A DNA stretch of 64,000 nucleotides from positions 558,001-622,000 of the forward strand of contig NZ_FOIS01000002.1 of assembly GCF_900110455.1 (NCBI RefSeq), read 5' to 3'. Position 1 is the first letter of the stretch. Every line of letters begins with the position of its first letter. This stretch comes from Natrinema salifodinae. GTDB lineage: Archaea > Halobacteriota > Halobacteria > Halobacteriales > Natrialbaceae. The notes beneath the pieces are model-generated. The model worked only from the letters and a program-made list of their open reading frames with translations, searched no databases and was not told the DNA's origin. Of this stretch, positions 1,437-62,525 are shown piece by piece. Both the position numbers and the translations under genes were made by a program.

Positions 1437-2567
1437 TCAGTCCGGCGGGTGCATTCCGGTCCCGCTTCGACCGGTGTTCCGACGCCGACGGAGCCGTGGC
1501 AGGTGAGAGCCGCCGATTTCGATGAGTCCCAGCCGATGCGCCGCGAGATAGACGAGGAGGGCCCCGAAGAACGTCGCGGGGGTCAACCCGAGGTGCCAGA
1601 GAATCGCGGACCAGGTGCCGTTTCCGAGCAGCGCTTCGCCCGTCCGCTCGAGGACGTACAAGACCGGTGGGTGTGCGACGTAAATTCCGACGGCGTATTT
1701 CCCCCACGACGGTAACGGGGTGGCTTTGCCAAGGTTCGGTCGCGAGAGGAGAAAGAGGAACAGCGAGACGGTAACCAGCGCGGTCGCGATCGTGTAACTC
1801 GCCGTGTAGACGCCCTGTACAATCGTCTCTCCCGAGAAGACGTATCCCAGCACGTATCGCTCGACGAGATGGAGCGCTCCAAAGCCGACGGTCGCACCGA
1901 GATAAAGCGTGCTTCGCTCGCTACTCGGCTGCCAGTCGGACGAGTAGATGACGTAGCCGAGGCTGGTGTAGAAGAACCCGAAGAACAGCGCGTCTCTGAT
2001 CTCGAACGGAACGTCCACGAACATCGTATAACTCGCTCCCAGAAGCCCGATGAGGTGGAATCCGATCGAAACCGGCAGCAGATACGCCGTCATATTCGTG
2101 ACGGTAAAGAGGTAAATAAGTGCGAGCGAGAAGCCGAGCGCCGGGAGAAACCACAGGATCTCGGAGATGGAGTTCCCGTAGTAGAGCAGTTCGAGCGGCG
2201 AACCGAATTCGGCCAGTTTGAGGACGAGTTCGCTCGCGAGAGCACGATTTTCCGACTCCGCGCGAACGACGGCCCCCGCGAGAAAAACGGGCGCAGAGAG
2301 CGCCAGTCCGAACACGTAGATCGACGCGATGGTGGTCGCTCGTTTGATGAAATACTTGGTCGGATCACGGCGGGTCGTTTTGAGGGCGAAGAAGTACCCC
2401 GCCGTCACGAAAAAGAACGGAACCGCGAACCGTGCGGACGATTCTATCAGAAAATTTACTATGTTGCCGTACGCGTTAAGATCCCGAAACGGCGTCGTAT
2501 GAATCGAGACGACGAACGCCATTGCGATTATTCGCATCGCATCGATACTGTGGATTCGGTTGGTCAT
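1437..2567 (-). CDS. Acyltransferase 3 family membrane protein
   Basis: Integral membrane O-acyltransferase of the Acyl_transf_3 type, which acetylates or acylates sugars or surface polymers. The protein has 376 residues, is mostly hydrophobic (about ten membrane segments), and begins with the family hallmark DAMR...H (H22 in SIHTTPF) in the first helix. The C-terminus is basic (RLRRRR). Base composition is visibly more AT-rich than the neighbours (runs such as gaaaatttactatg near 2450), and no glycan-biosynthesis partner is adjacent, so recent acquisition is plausible. It sits upstream of the aldehyde dehydrogenase on the same strand, but a joint function is not evident. Acceptor unknown. 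Confidence 0.85.
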   Translation of the reverse strand: MTNRIHSIDAMRIIAMAFVVSIHTTPFRDLNAYGNIVNFLIESSARFAVPFFFVTAGYFFALKTTRRDPTKYFIKRATTIASIYVFGLALSAPVFLAGAVVRAESENRALASELVLKLAEFGSPLELLYYGNSISEILWFLPALGFSLALIYLFTVTNMTAYLLPVSIGFHLIGLLGASYTMFVDVPFEIRDALFFGFFYTSLGYVIYSSDWQPSSERSTLYLGATVGFGALHLVERYVLGYVFSGETIVQGVYTASYTIATALVTVSLFLFLLSRPNLGKATPLPSWGKYAVGIYVAHPPVLYVLERTGEALLGNGTWSAILWHLGLTPATFFGALLVYLAAHRLGLIEIGGSHLPRLRRRRNTGRSGTGMHPPD

Positions 2568-2974
2568 GATTCGTGAAAATACGTTCTGAATGCGTTATTT
2601 CGGCTCGATTGACTGTTCGTCAGCCCGCAGCGTGTCTGACGAGAACACCAACAATCTGTTTCAAGAAAGTTCCGGTTAGCACCCATAACTGTACTGTCTA
2701 TAATGAGCTCCTGACAAGGAGAAATCACAACCGACGATCACGTCTCTTCGGGAGCGAGTCTGCCGAGAGACCGGTCGCCGGACTGCATTCCGACCGAGAC
2801 ACCGAAGATCGAACCGGTGCGCCGGCGGTGCGTGTCTCTCACCGATCACGATCGTGGCGGCGTCGCGTACCTGGGTCACGATTCCGGCGCGGTTCCGGAC
2901 TCGAAGACGTCCGAACTCAGTTCCCGAATCGAGTGTACTGATCCGGTCCCACGACGGGACCAGGCTGCCCGTAG
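2568..2974. other. Intergenic region without a credible gene
   Basis: This 407-base gap separates the acyltransferase start from the end of the PRC-barrel-like gene. Short open frames here have no domain, no acidic haloarchaeal composition and no promoter at a sensible distance. The part next to the acyltransferase is AT-rich and should hold its promoter. I see no RNA gene, repeat or strong hairpin. Confidence 0.5.
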
Positions 2975-3514
2975 CTATCGATCCTCCTCCTCACCGCGAT
3001 CCTTCGTGACGGTCCGATCTCCCTCCGGTGGCGCCTCCTCGGTGTCGGGGTGGCGCTCGTCGCCCGACTCCGTCATTCCCTCCGTCGACGGTTCGAGACC
3101 CTCGCCCGTCCGGCCCTCCTCGTCCGCGGCCGGGTCGTCGGGCGTTCCCGACGGCGGCCCCATGGTCCGTTGCTCGGCGCTGTCGTCGCGGTGGTCGGTG
3201 CGCTCGTCGCGTTCGATGACGGGATCAGCGCCTTCTTCGTCCGACTCCGCCAGCGAGGCCTGGTCGTCGGCGAGTCGAATCGCGTCCGCGGTGACCTCGC
3301 CGACGGTGGCTTCGTCTAGCGGAACGATCTCCTCGTCGGCCTCCCAGTCGAGGACGGCCCGAATCGCGCTCGTCGCACCCTCGTCGACGTCGACGTACGC
3401 GGTGTCGTCCTCGGTCATCCGGACGGTCCCGAGCGACTCGCCGTCCGCCGTCTCGACCCGCTTGCCGACGTCGTCGTCGGTAAACGTCGCACACATGTCT
3501 CGGTTTAGCGCCAT
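2975..3514 (-). CDS. PRC-barrel-like protein with acidic tail
   Basis: The N-terminal ~75 residues (VGKRVETADGESLGTV, then a YVDVDEG strand and IVPLDEATV) look like a small beta-barrel of the PRC type, often a protein- or RNA-interaction module. The rest is a disordered Asp/Glu/Pro-rich tail typical of haloarchaeal proteins. Length is 179 residues from ATG 3514; a second ATG (MCATFTDDD) lies six codons in, immediately before the conserved part, and could be the true start. It lies 101 bases downstream of the RIO-like kinase on the same strand, so the two may be co-transcribed. No enzyme motif is seen. Confidence 0.7.
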   Translation of the reverse strand: MALNRDMCATFTDDDVGKRVETADGESLGTVRMTEDDTAYVDVDEGATSAIRAVLDWEADEEIVPLDEATVGEVTADAIRLADDQASLAESDEEGADPVIERDERTDHRDDSAEQRTMGPPSGTPDDPAADEEGRTGEGLEPSTEGMTESGDERHPDTEEAPPEGDRTVTKDRGEEEDR

Positions 3515-9419: not shown

Positions 9420-10289
9420 TCAATCGTTGAATTCAGTTCCGTCGGCGGCAGCTGCCCGATCGCGGATCCGTCGGGCCTGCGCGATCAACGGCGCGTCGAT
9501 CATTTCGCCGTCGATCTCGAAAACGCCCCGTCCCTCGGCGTCGGCCTCTCGTTTAGCTGCCAGGACGCGCTCGGCCCACTCGCGGTCCTCCTGCGAGGGC
9601 GTGAACGCCCGGTTTATCACGTCGACCTGCGCGGGATGGATCGCCAGTTTCCCGTCGTATCCCAGCTGAATCGAGAACTCGGTGTCCTCCCGCAGAGCCG
9701 TCTCGTCCTCGAAGTCGGTGACGAGGGTGTCGATCGCCGCGCAGTCGGTCGCCGCCGCCGCGAGCACGACCCGCTCTCGCGCGTAGAGCACTTCGGTGCC
9801 CTCGTCGGTCCTGGTCGCGCCGACGTCCGCCGCGAGGTCCTCCGCACCGAAGACCAGAGCGTCGGTCGCGGGCACGGCCGCGATCTCGTCGGCCGCGAGG
9901 ATCCCGCTCGCGCTCTCGAGCAGCGCGAAAACGGGGAACTCCGCGCCGTACTTCCCGAGTTCGTCGACGAGCGCGCGGACGTCGTCCGGCGAGCCGATTT
10001 TCGGGAGCATGACGGCGTCGAGGGCGACGTCCGTCCCGCCTCCGAGCAGGGCGTCGAGGTCGTCCGCGATCGAGTCGTCGGTCGCGGTGACCCGAACGCA
10101 GACCTCGCAGTCGGGATCGAACTCGGGGTCAGACAGGACACTTCGGACCGCCTCGCGGGCCTCTCCCTTGCGCGTGGGTGCGACGGCGTCCTCGAGGTCG
10201 AAGACGATCACGTCCGCCCCAGCGCCGGGTGCCTTCCGGCACAGTTCGGGGCGGTCGCCTGGCGAGAACAGGACGCTTCTGCGAGCCAT
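9420..10289 (-). CDS. CitE-like HpcH/HpaI lyase (citrate lyase beta / malyl-CoA lyase family)
   Basis: TIM-barrel enzyme of the CitE/malyl-CoA lyase family, which cleaves or hydrolyses 3-hydroxyacyl-CoA such as malyl-CoA or beta-methylmalyl-CoA. From ATG 10289 it has 289 residues. Motifs: RRSVLFSPGDRPEL, FDLEDAVAP (metal/CoA site, about 40), ALLESASGI (acidic metal ligand), VFGAEDLAADVG and GKLAIHPAQV. No alpha or gamma citrate-lyase subunits are nearby, so a citrate lyase complex is unlikely. In some haloarchaea relatives act in the methylaspartate cycle, whose first substrate is glutamate; the adjacent glutamate dehydrogenase makes that attractive but unproven. Confidence 0.88.
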   Translation of the reverse strand: MARRSVLFSPGDRPELCRKAPGAGADVIVFDLEDAVAPTRKGEAREAVRSVLSDPEFDPDCEVCVRVTATDDSIADDLDALLGGGTDVALDAVMLPKIGSPDDVRALVDELGKYGAEFPVFALLESASGILAADEIAAVPATDALVFGAEDLAADVGATRTDEGTEVLYARERVVLAAAATDCAAIDTLVTDFEDETALREDTEFSIQLGYDGKLAIHPAQVDVINRAFTPSQEDREWAERVLAAKREADAEGRGVFEIDGEMIDAPLIAQARRIRDRAAAADGTEFND

Positions 10290-10401: not shown

Positions 10402-10424
10402 CACCCCTTGTTCAGAGTGAAAGC
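10402..10424 (-). repeat. Origin recognition box 1 (ORB-like)
   Basis: Reverse-strand copy of the shared element: CACCCCTTG then TTCAGAGTGAAAGCG. It differs from the consensus by one base in the Gs/Cs junction (TTG instead of TCG). Leftmost copy; its G-run points left, away from the AT-rich element. Confidence 0.8.
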
Positions 10425-10510
10425 GCATACGCGACGCGGGGTCGTGTCGTCCGCGGCTCGACCAGGGTGATGCGCGGCTGGACTAGGGTGATCGAAACGG
10501 CGTGTCGAGA

Positions 10511-10541
10511 CCCCACACACCCCTCGTTCAGAGTGAAAACG
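10511..10541 (-). repeat. Origin recognition box 2 (ORB-like)
   Basis: Full-length reverse-strand copy with the extended CCCCACACACCCCTCG G-string complement followed by TTCAGAGTGAAAACG. With box 3 it forms an inverted pair whose cores are about 22 bases apart. Confidence 0.82.
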
Positions 10542-10562
10542 TCTCGCCGTCGACCGGGGCTA

Positions 10563-10589
10563 TTTTTCACTCTGAACGGGGAGTGTGGT
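10563..10589 (+). repeat. Origin recognition box 3 (ORB-like, opposite orientation)
   Basis: Forward copy TTTTTCACTCTGAAC followed by GGGGAGTGTGGT; one base differs in the junction (ACGGGGAG rather than ACGAGGGG). It is the only left-side copy whose G-run points toward the AT-rich element. Confidence 0.8.
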
Positions 10590-10623
10590 TTCGATTCGAC
10601 GGGAACGGATCGGCGGACAGGGG

Positions 10624-10652
10624 GCCCACACCCCTCGTTCAGAGTGAAAGCG
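10624..10652 (-). repeat. Origin recognition box 4 (ORB-like)
   Basis: Reverse-strand copy CCCACACCCCTCG followed by TTCAGAGTGAAAGCG, nearest on the left to the AT-rich element (about 210 bases away). Confidence 0.82.
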
Positions 10653-10863
10653 CGATCGACCGGGGTCGGAGCGACGACCGGACACGGATGAGACGGACCG
10701 ACGTCACGAGCGATGCGGTCGGCCGCTTACTCGATTTTCCGCCGTTCAACGAGATTTACCGGGAATATCCCGCGTCTTGCTTTCGGTTTCTCACTACCGG
10801 TTCGCTTCTCGTTTCCGGTTAGTTGGTTCGGTCTCTCTACGAACGGTTCCTAGCACGGTCCTC

Positions 10864-10952
10864 GTTATCTAGGAACTCATTCTCTAGCTAGTTAGTACTA
10901 CTACATACAAATACTACCTATACCATAACATTTAATCTATATCTAGTAGGGG
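10864..10952. other. AT-rich duplex-unwinding element candidate
   Basis: About 90 bases rich in A and T in an otherwise GC-rich chromosome, containing ctagctagttagtac, catacaaatactacc and aacatttaatctatatc. It lies between ORB-like boxes 4 and 5. Low melting energy and position fit the site where the helix opens at an archaeal origin. No start codon follows at promoter distance in either direction that would make it an ordinary promoter. Confidence 0.75.
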
Positions 10953-11128
10953 AGACTCGTGACTCGAAAAAGGTTGATTCGAGAACCAATGAACTGAGAG
11001 CGGACCAGGCGGCGACCAGAGACACCGAGCACGGATCGAGCGGCGAACGGTGGTCCGGAACTCGCGTAACGAGGTGTCGGGTCGGTTTCGTTACTATCGC
11101 TTCTAGGTTCCCTGGCATCTCATTAGCC

Positions 11129-11220
11129 ATCTCTATCCTACCTCGCCTACCTCACTCCGTCCTGCCCCGCCCCACCACACCTCGCTCCATCCCGCCCCAC
11201 CCCACCTCTCGTTCTCCCGC
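11129..11220 (+). repeat. Pyrimidine-rich tract beside the origin
   Basis: The plus strand is almost free of G and poor in A for about 90 bases, with reiterated cctacctc, gccccacc and ccatcccgcc units. It sits between the AT-rich element and ORB-like box 5. It may be structural (triplex or single-strand prone) or simply a diverged low-complexity spacer. Confidence 0.6.
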
Positions 11221-11247
11221 TTTCAGTCTGAACGAGGGGTGGGGGCC
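11219..11247 (+). repeat. Origin recognition box 5 (ORB-like)
   Basis: Forward copy GCTTTCAGTCTGAACG followed by AGGGGTGGGGGCCA. CAGTC replaces CACTC. It lies on the orc1 side of the AT-rich element and its G-run points right, so boxes 4 and 5 form the inner inverted pair around the unwinding element. Confidence 0.82.
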
Positions 11248-11348
11248 ACGGTGAGGAACTAAACGGGCGATTCAGTCTGCATCCGGCCGCAGTCGTCTGT
11301 TCACCTTCGCGACCGATTCGGTGCCGTTTACCCACTTCGTACGGCTGT

Positions 11349-11380
11349 TTATCAGTCTGAACTACCTTCCATAGTTTTAT
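11349..11380 (+). promoter_or_regulatory. orc1 promoter with half ORB-like site
   Basis: ATCAGTCTGAACT at 11351-11363 matches the core half of box 5 but lacks the G-string. A TATA-like tagttttatt at 11372-11381 follows, about 27-32 bases before ATG 11406. The half site just upstream of TATA suggests that Orc1 may bind its own promoter. Confidence 0.55.
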
Positions 11381-11405
11381 TATGTCCGTCTCCCACGACG
11401 GAGAC

Positions 11406-12692
11406 ATGGCTGAACAGACTGGTGGGGATCCGCTCTTTCAATCTCACGATCCGATCTTTAATCGGAAAGAGCTCCTCCACGTCGGTCACGTCCCGGACGA
11501 GGACCGGATCGTCGGTCGGGACGACGAGATCCAGTCGGTCGCCGCCGAAGTCGGCGCGATCACGCGCGGTGATCCGCCGAACAACGTGATGATCTACGGC
11601 AAGACCGGCACCGGAAAGAGTCTCATCTCTCGACACGTCGCGACCCGCGCCCAGGACGCCGCCCGAAGCAACGATATCGATTGCGCCGTCCTTTACGTCG
11701 ACTGTTCCGAAGCGAACACCGAGACCCGCGCGACGCGCCAGCTGGCGCTCAGTTTGAAAGACCAGACCGGGTACCAGCAGAACATCCCGCTGCGGGGCGT
11801 CGGGACGATGGAGTACTACCAGCACATTTGGGGGATCCTCGAGGACTTCTTCGACGCCGTCATCGTCATCTTGGACGAGATCGACAAACTGGATAACAGC
11901 AACATTCTGATGCAACTCTCTCGCGCCCGCGAGGCCCGGAAGACGGACGCGTACATCGGCGTCATCGGCATCAGTAACAAGGTCCAGTACCGGGAGACCT
12001 TAGACGAGCGCATCGACAGCAGCTTCGGCCACCGGGAGCTGTTCTTCCACCCCTATGACGCCTCCCAACTCCGCGAGATCATGCGCAACCGCGAGGACGC
12101 CTTCCAGCCGGAGGTCTTAGAGGACGGGACGATCGAACTCTGCGCCGCCCTGGCCGCGAAGAAACACGGCGACGCGCGCAAGGCGATCGAGATTCTGAAG
12201 GAAGCTGGCGAACTCGCCCGCCGCACGGGCAGCGAGACCGTCTCGGAGGAACACATCCAGCAGGCTCAGGAGGTCGCCGAGATCAACCGTATCGAGGAAC
12301 TCACCAGCGGGGCGACCGTTCACGCGAAACTCGCCCTCTACGCGCTCGCGAGTCGCATCATCACGGGCGATCGGGAAACGTACAAGACCCGCGAGATCTA
12401 CAAGCGCTACGTCGGCATCTGCGATCTGGTCGCCAACGATCCGATCACCGAGAACGGGCTCTACCGTCAACTCAAGGAACAGGCCTTCCTCGGCGTCATC
12501 GAGTCCGAGAAGACCGGCGGCGGCCGCTCCCAGGGGAGCTATCTGTTGCATCGCCTGGTCACCGATCCGAAGCACATCGTCAAGGCGGTGCGCCGCGACG
12601 CCTCGCTCGAGGAGCTACCGACGTACGACCAACTTCGAGAGAACGGACAGTCGGCGGCGGATCGCGACGTCGATCTCAGTTCGTTTTCGTGA
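11406..12692 (+). CDS. orc1: Orc1/Cdc6 family replication initiator
   Basis: AAA+ origin-binding ATPase that recognises ORB elements and helps load the MCM helicase. The 428 residues contain Walker A GKTGTGKS (about 65-72), Walker B VILDEIDKL (about 153-161), sensor-1 IGISNK, sensor-2 region with GDARKAIEIL, and a C-terminal winged helix (about 300-400). I start at ATG 11406 because the TATA-like element at 11372-11381 gives a leaderless transcript there; ATG 11382 lies inside or beside that promoter. It is preceded by ORB-like repeats and followed by another, so it is probably the cognate initiator of this origin. Confidence 0.96.
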   Translation: MAEQTGGDPLFQSHDPIFNRKELLHVGHVPDEDRIVGRDDEIQSVAAEVGAITRGDPPNNVMIYGKTGTGKSLISRHVATRAQDAARSNDIDCAVLYVDCSEANTETRATRQLALSLKDQTGYQQNIPLRGVGTMEYYQHIWGILEDFFDAVIVILDEIDKLDNSNILMQLSRAREARKTDAYIGVIGISNKVQYRETLDERIDSSFGHRELFFHPYDASQLREIMRNREDAFQPEVLEDGTIELCAALAAKKHGDARKAIEILKEAGELARRTGSETVSEEHIQQAQEVAEINRIEELTSGATVHAKLALYALASRIITGDRETYKTREIYKRYVGICDLVANDPITENGLYRQLKEQAFLGVIESEKTGGGRSQGSYLLHRLVTDPKHIVKAVRRDASLEELPTYDQLRENGQSAADRDVDLSSFS

Positions 12693-12786
12693 GGCCGGTC
12701 ATCGACGATGGCGGAGAGTCACAAATCGGTCCGGCGGCTGCGCTTCGTCGCCGCTCCTGCGACCGGGACCCGCCCTCGCGAGCCGA

Positions 12787-12814
12787 TTTCACTCTGAACG
12801 AGGGGTGTGGGGGA
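12787..12814 (+). repeat. Origin recognition box 6 (ORB-like), downstream of orc1
   Basis: Perfect-looking forward copy TTTCACTCTGAACG followed by AGGGGTGTGGGGGA, located 95 bases after the orc1 stop codon and about 1.5 kb from box 5. Its G-run points right, like box 5, so the initiator gene lies between two boxes of the same orientation. Confidence 0.82.
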
Positions 12815-12882: not shown

Positions 12883-14160
12883 CTACGGCCAGAGTCCCCG
12901 CGCTTCGTGGGCCGCGGCGATTCGTTCGAGCGCGACGATGTAGGTGGCGTCGCGCCAGGTGACGTCACGCGACTCGTACTCCCGTCGGACGTCGGTCCAC
13001 GCCCGGCGCATCTCCGTCTCGAGTTCCTCGTTGACCCGCTCGAGGCGCCAGCTTCGCCGATTGATGTCCTGGAGCCACTCGAAGTAGCTGACCGTGACGC
13101 CGCCGGCGTTGGCGATGATGTCCGGGATCACCGGGACGTCGCGCTCCTCGAAGATCTGGTCGGCCGTCGAGGTCGTCGGGCCGTTCGCCCCTTCGACGAT
13201 CATATCGGCGTCGACCCCGCGGGCGTTCTCCCCGGTTAGAACGTTGCCGATCGCGGCGGGGATGAGCACGTCGACGTCGAGTTCGAGCAGTTCCTCGTTC
13301 GTGAGCGTCTCCGGAGCGTCGTACCCCGAGACCATCCCCGGGCTCTCGTCGTGTCCTTCGACGTCGCCCGTGTCGAGCCCGTCGGGGTCGTAGATCGCGC
13401 CGTCGACGTCCGAAACGGCGACGATCGAGGCGCCCAGCTCGTCGAGATAGCGGGCGGCGTTGGCGCCGACGCTGCCGAATCCCTGGACGGCGACGGCCGT
13501 TTCCGCGGGGTCCCGGTCGTAGTACGCGAGCGCCTCGCGGGTGACGATCCCGACGCTCCGTCCCGGCGCCTCCTCGCGACCGTAGGAACCGCCGACGACC
13601 GGCGGCTTTCCGGTGACGACGCCCGGTTCGGTCTGGCCCTCCTGCATCGAGTACGCGTCCATGAACCAGGCCATCGACTGCGGACCGGTCCCCATGTCGG
13701 GTGCGGGAATGTCTCTCATCGGCCCGATCATCGGGCGAAGCTCCTCGGCGAACCGACGGGTGAGCCGCTCCTTTTCGTTGGAACTGAGGTCCTTGGGGTC
13801 GACGATGACCCCGCCCTTGGCCCCACCGAACGGGATGTCCATCACCGCGCACTTCCAGGTCATCCACATCGAGAGGCCGATACACTCGTCTTCGGTGACG
13901 CCGGGGTGGTAGCGCAGTCCGCCCTTGTAGGGCCCGCGCACGCTGTCGTGGTGCGCGCGATACCCCGTGTACATCTCTTGGGATCCGTCGTCGCGCTCGA
14001 GCGGGATCGAGACCCGGTAGACGCTCGTGGGGTGGCGCAGCCGTTCGATCACCCCCTCGTCGATGTCGAGGTGGGCGGCCGCGCGCTCGAGTTGGCGACG
14101 GGCTGTTTCGACGGCGCTCTCCGTCTCGTCCGGTTCGGTTGTGGAATCGGTCGTTGTCAT
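12883..14160 (-). CDS. gdh: Glutamate dehydrogenase, second paralogue
   Basis: Same reaction family as the gene at 8063-9319: glutamate to or from 2-oxoglutarate and ammonia. The 425 residues show [10 protein letters not shown], the catalytic-lysine motif [12 protein letters not shown] (about 115) and Rossmann GFGSVGAN (about 237). It is clearly diverged from the first copy (for example [13 protein letters not shown] and MDAYSMQEG), so this is an old duplication, perhaps with different coenzyme or direction. The start is ATG 14160 ([15 protein letters not shown]), followed by a short acidic lead. It is divergent from the semialdehyde dehydrogenase at 14450. Confidence 0.96.
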
Positions 14161-59844: not shown

Positions 59845-62525
59845 GGGTCGACCGCGTCCGCCTACTGAACTTCAAGTGCTACGGCGAGGCCGATCTCTCG
59901 CTCGAGCGCGGGGTCACCGTCGTCCACGGCGTCAACGGCAGCGGCAAGTCGACGCTGCTCGAGGCCGTCTTCTTCGCGCTCTACGGCTCGAAGGCGCTGG
60001 ACGATCGGACCCTCGACGACGTCATCACCACCGGCGAGGAGGAGGCCGAGGTCGAACTGTGGTTCACCCACGACGGCCGCGAGTATCACGTCGAACGCCG
60101 GCTCAAGCTGCGCGGCGATCGGGCGACCACGACGAAGTGCGTCCTCGAGACGCCGACGGCGACGATCGAGGGCGCCCGCGACGTCCGCCGCGAGGTGACC
60201 GACCTCCTGCGGATGGACGCCGAGGCGTTCGTCAACTGTGCGTACGTCCGCCAGGGCGAGGTCAACAAGCTCATCCACGCCTCGCCGAGCGACCGCCAGG
60301 ACATGATCGACGACCTCCTCCAGTTGGGCGCGCTCGAGGACTACCGCGAGCGGGCCAGCGAGGCGCGACTGGGCGTCAAGACCGTCCTCGACGGCCAGCG
60401 AGAGGTCCTCGAGGACGTTCGCAACCAGGTCGAACAGAAGGAGGACAAGGAACTCCACGAGCGTCTGAACGGGCTCGAATCTCGCCAGGCCGAGGTCGCC
60501 GAGGAGATCGACCACTACGAAACGCAACGCGACCAGGCACAGGAGACCCTCGACGCGGCCGCGGACGTCCTCGACCGCCACGAGGAGACCCGCGAGGAGA
60601 TCGAGTCGCTCGAGGACGAGATCGAAGACCTGCGCTCGAAAATTAGCGAGACCGAGCGCGAGCGCGAGGACGCCGGCGACGAGATCCGCGACGTTCGCGA
60701 GCGACGCGAGGAACTCGCCGACGAACGCGCCGACCTGCTCGCCGAGACCGACCTCGAGACGACCGATCCCGACGCGGAGGCCGTCCGGAATCGCATCGAG
60801 GAACTCGAGGCCCGCGACGAGGCCCTCCGCGACGACCTCGAGGACGTCCGCGTGACGATCACCGAGGGGACCAACGAGATCGAGCGCCTCCGCGAGGAGG
60901 CCGCCGACCTCGAAGACCAGGCGGACCAGGCCCGCGAGGAAGCCGCCGACCTCGACGACCAGATCGCAGCCGACGAGGAGACGATCGAGGAACGCGAGTC
61001 GAAACTCGACGACCTCGACGAGCAGATCGAGGACGCACGAGCGACGTTCGACGACGCGCCGGTCGCGTTCGGCCAGGCCAAGTCACACCTCGCCGACCTC
61101 GAGACCGAGCGCGAGGCACTGACCGACGAGATCAGCGACGTCACCGCCGACATTCGCGCCGACGAGAACGCGATCGAGGAGGGCGAACGGCTCCTCGAGG
61201 AGGGCAAGTGCCCCGAGTGCGGCCAGCCGGTCGAGGACTCCCCGCACGTTGACGTCTTGGACGACAAACGCGAGGAACTCGCCGCCCTCGAGGAGCGCCG
61301 CGACGACCTCGAGGCCGAGCGCGACGCCCTCGACGAGCGGATCGAACGCGCGGAGGAGCTCCGCGAGACGGAGCGGCGGGTCGATCGACTCGAGGAGAAC
61401 CGCGACAACATCGAGCAGTTGCTCGCCGAGAAACGCGAGCGTCTGGCGGACCGACGCGAGCAGCGCGACCGGCTCCGCGAGGATGCCGACGAATACGAGG
61501 CCGAGGCCGCGGAGAAGCGGACCGCGGCGGACGACCGGGAAGGCGCGGTGACCGAGGCACGGGCCGAACTCGGCGAGATCAACACCGAACGCGGCGAGCT
61601 CAAGGAGACCCTCGAAGCGCTGCGCCGCGTCGCCGAGATCGCCGACGAGCGCGCGGACCTCGAGAGCGAGATCGAGACCCTCCGCGAGCGTCGTCGGGAC
61701 TGGGAGACGATGAACGACGAGCGCCGCGAGCAGCTCTCGGCGAAACGCGACCGCAAGCGCGAGCTCGAGTCCGAGTTCGACGAGGAGCGGATCGCAACCG
61801 CCCGCGAGGACAAGCGCAACGCCGAGCAGTACTTGGATCAGGTCGGCGAGAAACTCGCGGAACTCGAGGAGCGGCGCACGGAGATTCAAAACGCCATCGG
61901 CGCGGTCGAGAACGAACTCGAGGAACTCGAGCGGCTCCGGGAGCGCCTCGAGACCGTCGAAGCCCGCTGCGACCAGCTCGGATCGCTGTACGACGAGGCC
62001 GAAACGCTCCAGACGACCTACGGCGACCTGCGGACGGAACTGCGCCAGCGCAACGTCGAAACCCTCGAACGGTTGTTGAACGAGACGTTCGACCTGGTCT
62101 ACCAGAACGACTCCTACGCGGCGATCGACCTGGACGGCGACTACCGGCTGACGGTCTACCAGAAGGACGGCGAGGCGCTCGAGCCCGAGCAACTATCGGG
62201 TGGCGAGCGAGCACTGTTCAACCTCAGCCTGCGGTGTGCGATCTACCGGCTGCTGGCCGAGGGCGTCGAGGGGACGGCCCCGATGCCGCCGCTGATCTTA
62301 GACGAGCCGACGGTCTTCCTGGACTCGGGCCACGTGACGCAACTGGTCTCCCTGGTCGAGTCGATGCGCGAGTTGGGCGTCGAGCAGATCGTCGTCGTCA
62401 GCCACGACGAGGAACTCGTCGGCGCGGCCGACTCGCTGGTCCGCGTCGAGAAAGACGCGACCTCGAACCGCTCGCGACTCGAGCGCGGCGAGCCGCCCGA
62501 AATGGAACTGCTCGCGTCGGACTGA
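59841..62525 (+). CDS. rad50: DNA double-strand break repair ATPase Rad50
   Basis: SMC-like ATPase that joins with Mre11. 894 residues from GTG 59841 within the mre11 stop. Walker A HGVNGSGKSTLLEAV (about 30-45), long Glu/Arg-rich coiled coil (about 165-450), zinc hook CPECGQP with Cys 457 and 460, second coiled coil (about 470-730), signature LSGGERAL (about 785) and Walker B LILDEPTVFLD (about 818) with a D-loop and VSHDEELV. All blocks are intact, so the gene looks functional. Confidence 0.97.
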   Translation: MRVDRVRLLNFKCYGEADLSLERGVTVVHGVNGSGKSTLLEAVFFALYGSKALDDRTLDDVITTGEEEAEVELWFTHDGREYHVERRLKLRGDRATTTKCVLETPTATIEGARDVRREVTDLLRMDAEAFVNCAYVRQGEVNKLIHASPSDRQDMIDDLLQLGALEDYRERASEARLGVKTVLDGQREVLEDVRNQVEQKEDKELHERLNGLESRQAEVAEEIDHYETQRDQAQETLDAAADVLDRHEETREEIESLEDEIEDLRSKISETEREREDAGDEIRDVRERREELADERADLLAETDLETTDPDAEAVRNRIEELEARDEALRDDLEDVRVTITEGTNEIERLREEAADLEDQADQAREEAADLDDQIAADEETIEERESKLDDLDEQIEDARATFDDAPVAFGQAKSHLADLETEREALTDEISDVTADIRADENAIEEGERLLEEGKCPECGQPVEDSPHVDVLDDKREELAALEERRDDLEAERDALDERIERAEELRETERRVDRLEENRDNIEQLLAEKRERLADRREQRDRLREDADEYEAEAAEKRTAADDREGAVTEARAELGEINTERGELKETLEALRRVAEIADERADLESEIETLRERRRDWETMNDERREQLSAKRDRKRELESEFDEERIATAREDKRNAEQYLDQVGEKLAELEERRTEIQNAIGAVENELEELERLRERLETVEARCDQLGSLYDEAETLQTTYGDLRTELRQRNVETLERLLNETFDLVYQNDSYAAIDLDGDYRLTVYQKDGEALEPEQLSGGERALFNLSLRCAIYRLLAEGVEGTAPMPPLILDEPTVFLDSGHVTQLVSLVESMRELGVEQIVVVSHDEELVGAADSLVRVEKDATSNRSRLERGEPPEMELLASD

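Follow-up and report, generated by a model that had tools for sequence, protein, structure and literature searches.

The 64,000-nt stretch of Natrinema salifodinae DNA analysed here (the window) harbours what is, with high probability, a chromosomal Orc1/Cdc6-dependent replication origin of this Natrialbaceae haloarchaeon, equipped with its own initiator-box pair and distinct from oriC1. An ORB-type origin served by a dedicated initiator, with putative activity in cells, is very probable here, and the locus is a well-conserved new addition to the known haloarchaeal orc-associated origins, with a box family of its own. The first-pass annotation had already read it as an origin, and this reading is well supported by the anatomy, the genome-wide confinement of the core, a layout and synteny kept in 30+ relatives and the match to tested haloarchaeal origins. 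The locus bears on how each origin stays independent in multi-origin archaea with about a dozen Orc proteins, and sister initiators whose boxes are one base apart (GAAC/GGAC) make recognition testable. A conserved box in the initiator promoter also suggests a feedback loop resembling that of bacterial dnaA.

Anatomy of the probable origin locus

A search of the window with up to three mismatches finds six copies of TTTCACTCTGAACGAGGGG within 10404-12805, three of them exact and the rest with 1, 1 and 2 mismatches (Table 1). Dinucleotide shuffles give a mean of 0.01, and none of 100 shuffles reaches six, which rules out a chance repeat as the source of the boxes. The six-copy repeat beside orc1/cdc6 reported by the first-pass annotation is therefore real, as are the shared core and G-run, all six boxes matching with at most two mismatches and the G-string being seen directly in the window boxes. 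Among 186 boxes from orthologous loci, positions 15-18 are G in 91-100%, a figure partly built in by the choice of boxes with G-rich tails.

The orientation, which the annotation had taken to be shared, is not: the strands run -, -, +, -, +, + from left to right, with three minus boxes (10404, 10520 and 10631) and three plus boxes (10565, 11221 and 12787). Most of the box starts that it gave were also a few bases off, and its count of six, although correct, missed two further degenerate copies (ATTCAGTCTGCATCCGG and TATCAGTCTGAAC). The G-strings point mostly outward from the AT-rich element; the exception is the box at 10565, and a plus box within the left cluster is recurrent in many orthologues. 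The copies had been described as surrounding the AT-rich element, which holds in that inverted boxes bracket it, but four of them lie to its left, one lies between the element and orc, and one is found past the orc stop.

Table 1. Features of the locus and its immediate neighbours (window coordinates)
Feature	Position	Strand	Remarks
citE-like CoA ester lyase	9420..10286	-	conserved neighbour flanking the boxes on the left; context
ORB 1	10404..10422	-	1 mismatch, G-string leftward
ORB 2	10520..10538	-	exact
ORB 3	10565..10583	+	2 mismatches; opposite orientation inside left cluster
ORB 4	10631..10649	-	exact
AT-rich element	10865..10964		66% AT, window maximum per 100 nt; putative duplex-unwinding element
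ORB 5	11221..11239	+	1 mismatch; right-hand inverted partner
Degenerate ORB ATTCAGTCTGCATCCGG	11270..11286	+	without G-string; conserved in most Natrialbaceae orthologues
Promoter-proximal ORB core TATCAGTCTGAAC	11350..11362	+	ATCAGTCTGAAC = 11351-11362; without G-string; proposed Orc autoregulatory operator
TATA-like element TTTTATTA of orc	11375..11382	+	24-31 nt ahead of ATG 11406
orc1/cdc6 initiator gene	11406..12692	+	428 aa from ATG 11406; frame open from 11382
ORB 6	12787..12805	+	exact; 95 nt past orc stop
gdhB	12883..14160	-	conserved neighbour; context, outside origin

The box region is intergenic and directly adjoins orc1/cdc6, with inverted ORB repeats, three on each strand, and the AT-rich element located between them, as in a haloarchaeal orc/cdc6-associated origin. 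AT content reaches 64% over 10860-10959, where the contig averages 35%, and 0.3% of contig windows are equally AT-rich. Elsewhere in the window, the kilobase of lowest G+C (56%) is found at 2001-3000, and positions 60001-62000 display a strong AT skew (0.39-0.43) across 2 kb, unlike the remaining window.

The orc gene is intact and encodes an AAA+ ATPase, a Cdc6 lid and a C-terminal winged helix; the protein is related in sequence to S. solfataricus Cdc6-1 and the A. pernix initiator, both known from crystal structures. The start codon is likely ATG 11406 and not 11382, because the annotated Natronorubrum bangense orthologue starts there and the spacing from the TATA-like element fits. A start at this position would suit a leaderless orc transcript.

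In the proposed working of the origin, Orc (11406-12692) would bind the inverted boxes, with its winged helix on the TTTCACTCTGAAC core and its AAA+ domain on the G-string, after which the AT-rich element at 10865-10964 would open and the MCM helicase be loaded. The conserved box just past orc may act as an extra binding site tuning or titrating Orc. The haloarchaeal orc/cdc6 origins (Wu et al. 2012, PMC3528665; Har. hispanica, PMC3936714) are likewise intergenic beside orc1/cdc6, with inverted ORBs carrying the halophile G-string, an AT-rich element, a box type tied to the Orc family and, in several cases, ORBs downstream of the gene too. The window locus differs from them in its own core TTTCACTCTGAAC, its Orc clade, the conserved single downstream box and the promoter box without a G-string. 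Published experiments in Haloarcula hispanica (PMC3936714) showed that origins of this anatomy do not work without the cdc6 gene beside them and that oriC1 requires its G-strings.

Confinement, conservation and pairing of box with initiator

The genome search that the first-pass annotation had suggested was run over the whole genome (4.27 Mb, 8 contigs), and it confines the core to the locus: outside the six boxes there is a single TTTCACTCTGAACGAGGGG match, with 3 mismatches (C2:478854), and a reversed-pattern control gave no matches. Of the eight genomic copies of the 12-mer WTCASTCTGAAC, seven belong to the locus and one lies in a coding ORF 70 kb away. Scattering of the core away from orc genes is ruled out by both searches. 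No match to the box was detected in the viral contigs searched, and no published mention of it was found in the open-access literature.

About 13 orc-like genes are present in the genome (14 protein matches, two of which are pieces of one gene). One of them, at C4:565589-567166 (L097), carries the oriC1-like boxes CCACTTGAAACGAAGGGG and CCAGTCGAAACGAAGGGG, and we take it to be the oriC1 locus from its canonical ORB. The window origin shares its general architecture and initiator family with oriC1-Orc1, which is conserved across archaea, but identity with oriC1 is ruled out by the oriC1-like boxes and Orc at L097 and by the placement of the window Orc in a different clade. In the L097 protein, about 146 additional in-frame residues separate the two halves of the AAA+ domain; they are a possible intein, for which no intein family was matched in Pfam.

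Close relatives of the window Orc are found at 38 named loci (37 orthologues plus the window), nearly all in Natrialbaceae. Nearly all 38 share one layout, comprising minus boxes, an AT-rich stretch, a plus box, orc and a plus box past its stop; the gene-proximal plus box usually lies about 150-230 nt before orc, and the downstream box, within 400 nt past the gene, is kept in 33 of the 38. The spacing between minus boxes is not constant among orthologues. The loci with this layout include those on the complete chromosomes of N. bangense and Natrinema zhouii. Most Natrialbaceae loci retain one or more of gdhA, citE, gdhB and the aldehyde dehydrogenase gene beside the origin, whose location is therefore old in this family; three Haloferacaceae relatives within the GAAC clade have none of this neighbourhood. 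No rRNA operon was detected at gathering threshold in C2:500-640 kb. Outside the window, at about 637.7 kb of C2 (L173:17653-17723), an S15-Halobacteria ribosomal leader with a tRNA gene nearby points to a chromosomal contig.

Most ORB-bearing paralogous orc genes in the genome carry their own, different repeats, such as TTTCACCGGAAAC, CATACAGCGGCAC, TTTCATTTCGCAC and CTTCACTTGCAAC. Mapped on a tree of 104 Orc proteins, ten box groups require 10 changes, where the minimum is 9 and shuffles average 44.5 (0 of 200 as low); near-copies inflate such counts, and the starred branches separating the groups are independent of near-copies. The single stray member of the window's box group is a second, unrelated orc at a locus with GGAC boxes. 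Specificity of the core for the window's initiator is strongly supported on these comparative grounds, the co-phylogeny and the unlike boxes of the paralogues.

Inverted sets of the GGAC variant TTTCACTCTGGACGAGGGG are found across haloarchaea, in most cases next to the sister clade of the window's Orc. GAAC-type and GGAC-type boxes adjoin two sister Orc clades, and box type is linked to the adjacent Orc family. The two families are alike in their inverted layout and in having a box immediately ahead of the TATA-like element; their boxes differ by one base, and the GGAC Orcs are roughly 50-56% identical to the window Orc. The two clades show 49 fixed differences, too many to name one specificity residue. 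Whereas the window family occupies a fixed chromosomal place in most Natrialbaceae, the GGAC family spans at least five families and many plasmids and is mobile, as its near-identical Orcs across these families indicate. At ten loci from five families (L103, L106, L108, L109, L116-L118, L129, L130, L138), the GGAC Orc and boxes are nearly identical, pointing to a recent horizontal spread of the origin-initiator module. Single copies of TTTCACTCCGAACGAGGGG were also observed on short contigs (L105, L132-L135), with no orc gene detected nearby.

The promoter box of the initiator gene

A core lacking the G-string, ATCAGTCTGAAC, precedes the TATA-like element of orc by 12 nt. In the alignment of upstream regions, the succession TATCAGTCTGAAC-TACCTTCCATAG-TTTTATTA is almost unchanged; the box core is present at 37 of the 38 loci, and its first nine bases are invariant in Natrialbaceae. 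The presence of a cognate box at the initiator's own promoter suggests that it is an Orc autoregulatory operator through which the initiator may control its own gene.

The promoter box was noticed post hoc and then tested on other orc loci. With boxes discovered from distal DNA only, a plus-strand match (p <= 0.01) is found within the 170 nt preceding the gene at 56 of 97 orc loci, compared with 4 for the minus strand; origin geometry by itself predicts the plus orientation, and the loci in these tests are related. When box families were defined solely by their distal G-string boxes, the last 150 nt before the gene matched the family's own core best at 57 of 64 loci (52 strictly; about 6 expected), some of the promoter-region matches being an ordinary gene-proximal ORB. 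Besides the window's, nine other Orc families have cognate boxes at the promoter position. Across these ten families, whose box sequences differ, the gene-proximal DNA has a plus-oriented copy of the respective family core, as a rule 9-14 nt ahead of a TATA-like element (median 11 nt, where such an element was found) and often with the G-string lost. The loss is not seen in every family, the AAATCGAT family keeping GGGG. The box of the CCGGAAAC family is located 30-40 nt ahead of the start codon, and no clear TATA follows it.

It is quite conceivable, if somewhat short of probable, that haloarchaeal Orc initiators generally autoregulate, one protein reading boxes with a G-string as origin and G-less boxes as operator. 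At the window locus, the box at 11350-11362 would let Orc regulate its own gene, most likely by repression through covering the promoter. DnaA boxes in the dnaA promoter underlie the autoregulation of bacterial dnaA. The likeness lies in how the systems work, an initiator site in the initiator's own promoter, as the bacterial initiator and promoter system are unrelated to those of archaeal Orc, whose regulation is proposed here from sequence. Haloarchaeal origin surveys (PMC3528665, PMC3936714) kept only repeats with a G-string, and G-less promoter boxes would therefore have been omitted from them. This architecture was not found in the open-access papers searched, and its novelty is uncertain.

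Activity and alternative readings

A candidate for published activity was the tested origin of Natrinema J7 (the pFJ3 region, with 5+1 ORBs), which looked similar. It was rejected: none of the primer pairs of PMC5350488 matches the locus, and a search of the window and its orthologues with up to 4 mismatches gave only scattered single-primer matches. No published activity is therefore transferable to the locus. The ARS-2 and ARS-4 forward primers of the same study match paralogous loci.

Along the 929-kb contig, GC skew has no inflection at the locus (the right side exceeds the left by 0.0036 at +/-100 kb, with a null sd of 0.0058), as would be the case for a dormant or conditional origin, a complete module that rarely fires in the wild type and serves as a reserve. 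The weight of this result is reduced by the low power of the test, because the candidate oriC1 locus itself gives only a small change. The same anatomy is displayed by the dormant oriC4-cdc6H of Haloferax mediterranei (PMC4595724) and by predicted but ARS-negative origins of Haloarcula hispanica (PMC3528665). That boxes, layout and location are strongly conserved throughout Natrialbaceae argues against dormancy, which is considered rather unlikely.

The boxes, some of which lie at the orc promoter and downstream of the gene, could also be mainly Orc operators or titration sites setting the Orc level, with replication starting elsewhere. In H. hispanica, an ORB-rich region downstream of oriC2-cdc6E controls the origin negatively, probably by titration (PMC3936714), and a Sulfolobus Orc paralogue, Orc1-2, is reported to be a transcription regulator (PMC9738581). 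Inverted boxes with G-strings flanking the stretch of highest AT content are unnecessary for an operator and match proven origins, and the promoter box is separate and without a G-string; a purely regulatory role is accordingly improbable.

Descent from an integrated plasmid origin as a mere remnant is very improbable: the near-identical Orcs of the sister GGAC clade in five families, the many plasmids carrying Orcs about 53% identical to the window Orc, the Haloferacaceae members of the GAAC clade without the gdh neighbourhood and the identical copy on an N. bangense plasmid would fit it, but the Natrialbaceae locus is usually in the same chromosomal neighbourhood with gene and boxes intact, so that any descent from a plasmid would date far back, with the module retained since, and such an ancestry is compatible with function. 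The two N. bangense copies of the origin (L023, L024), on the chromosome and on the 828-kb plasmid, are identical over 11.3 kb, reflecting either a recent duplication or an assembly artefact.
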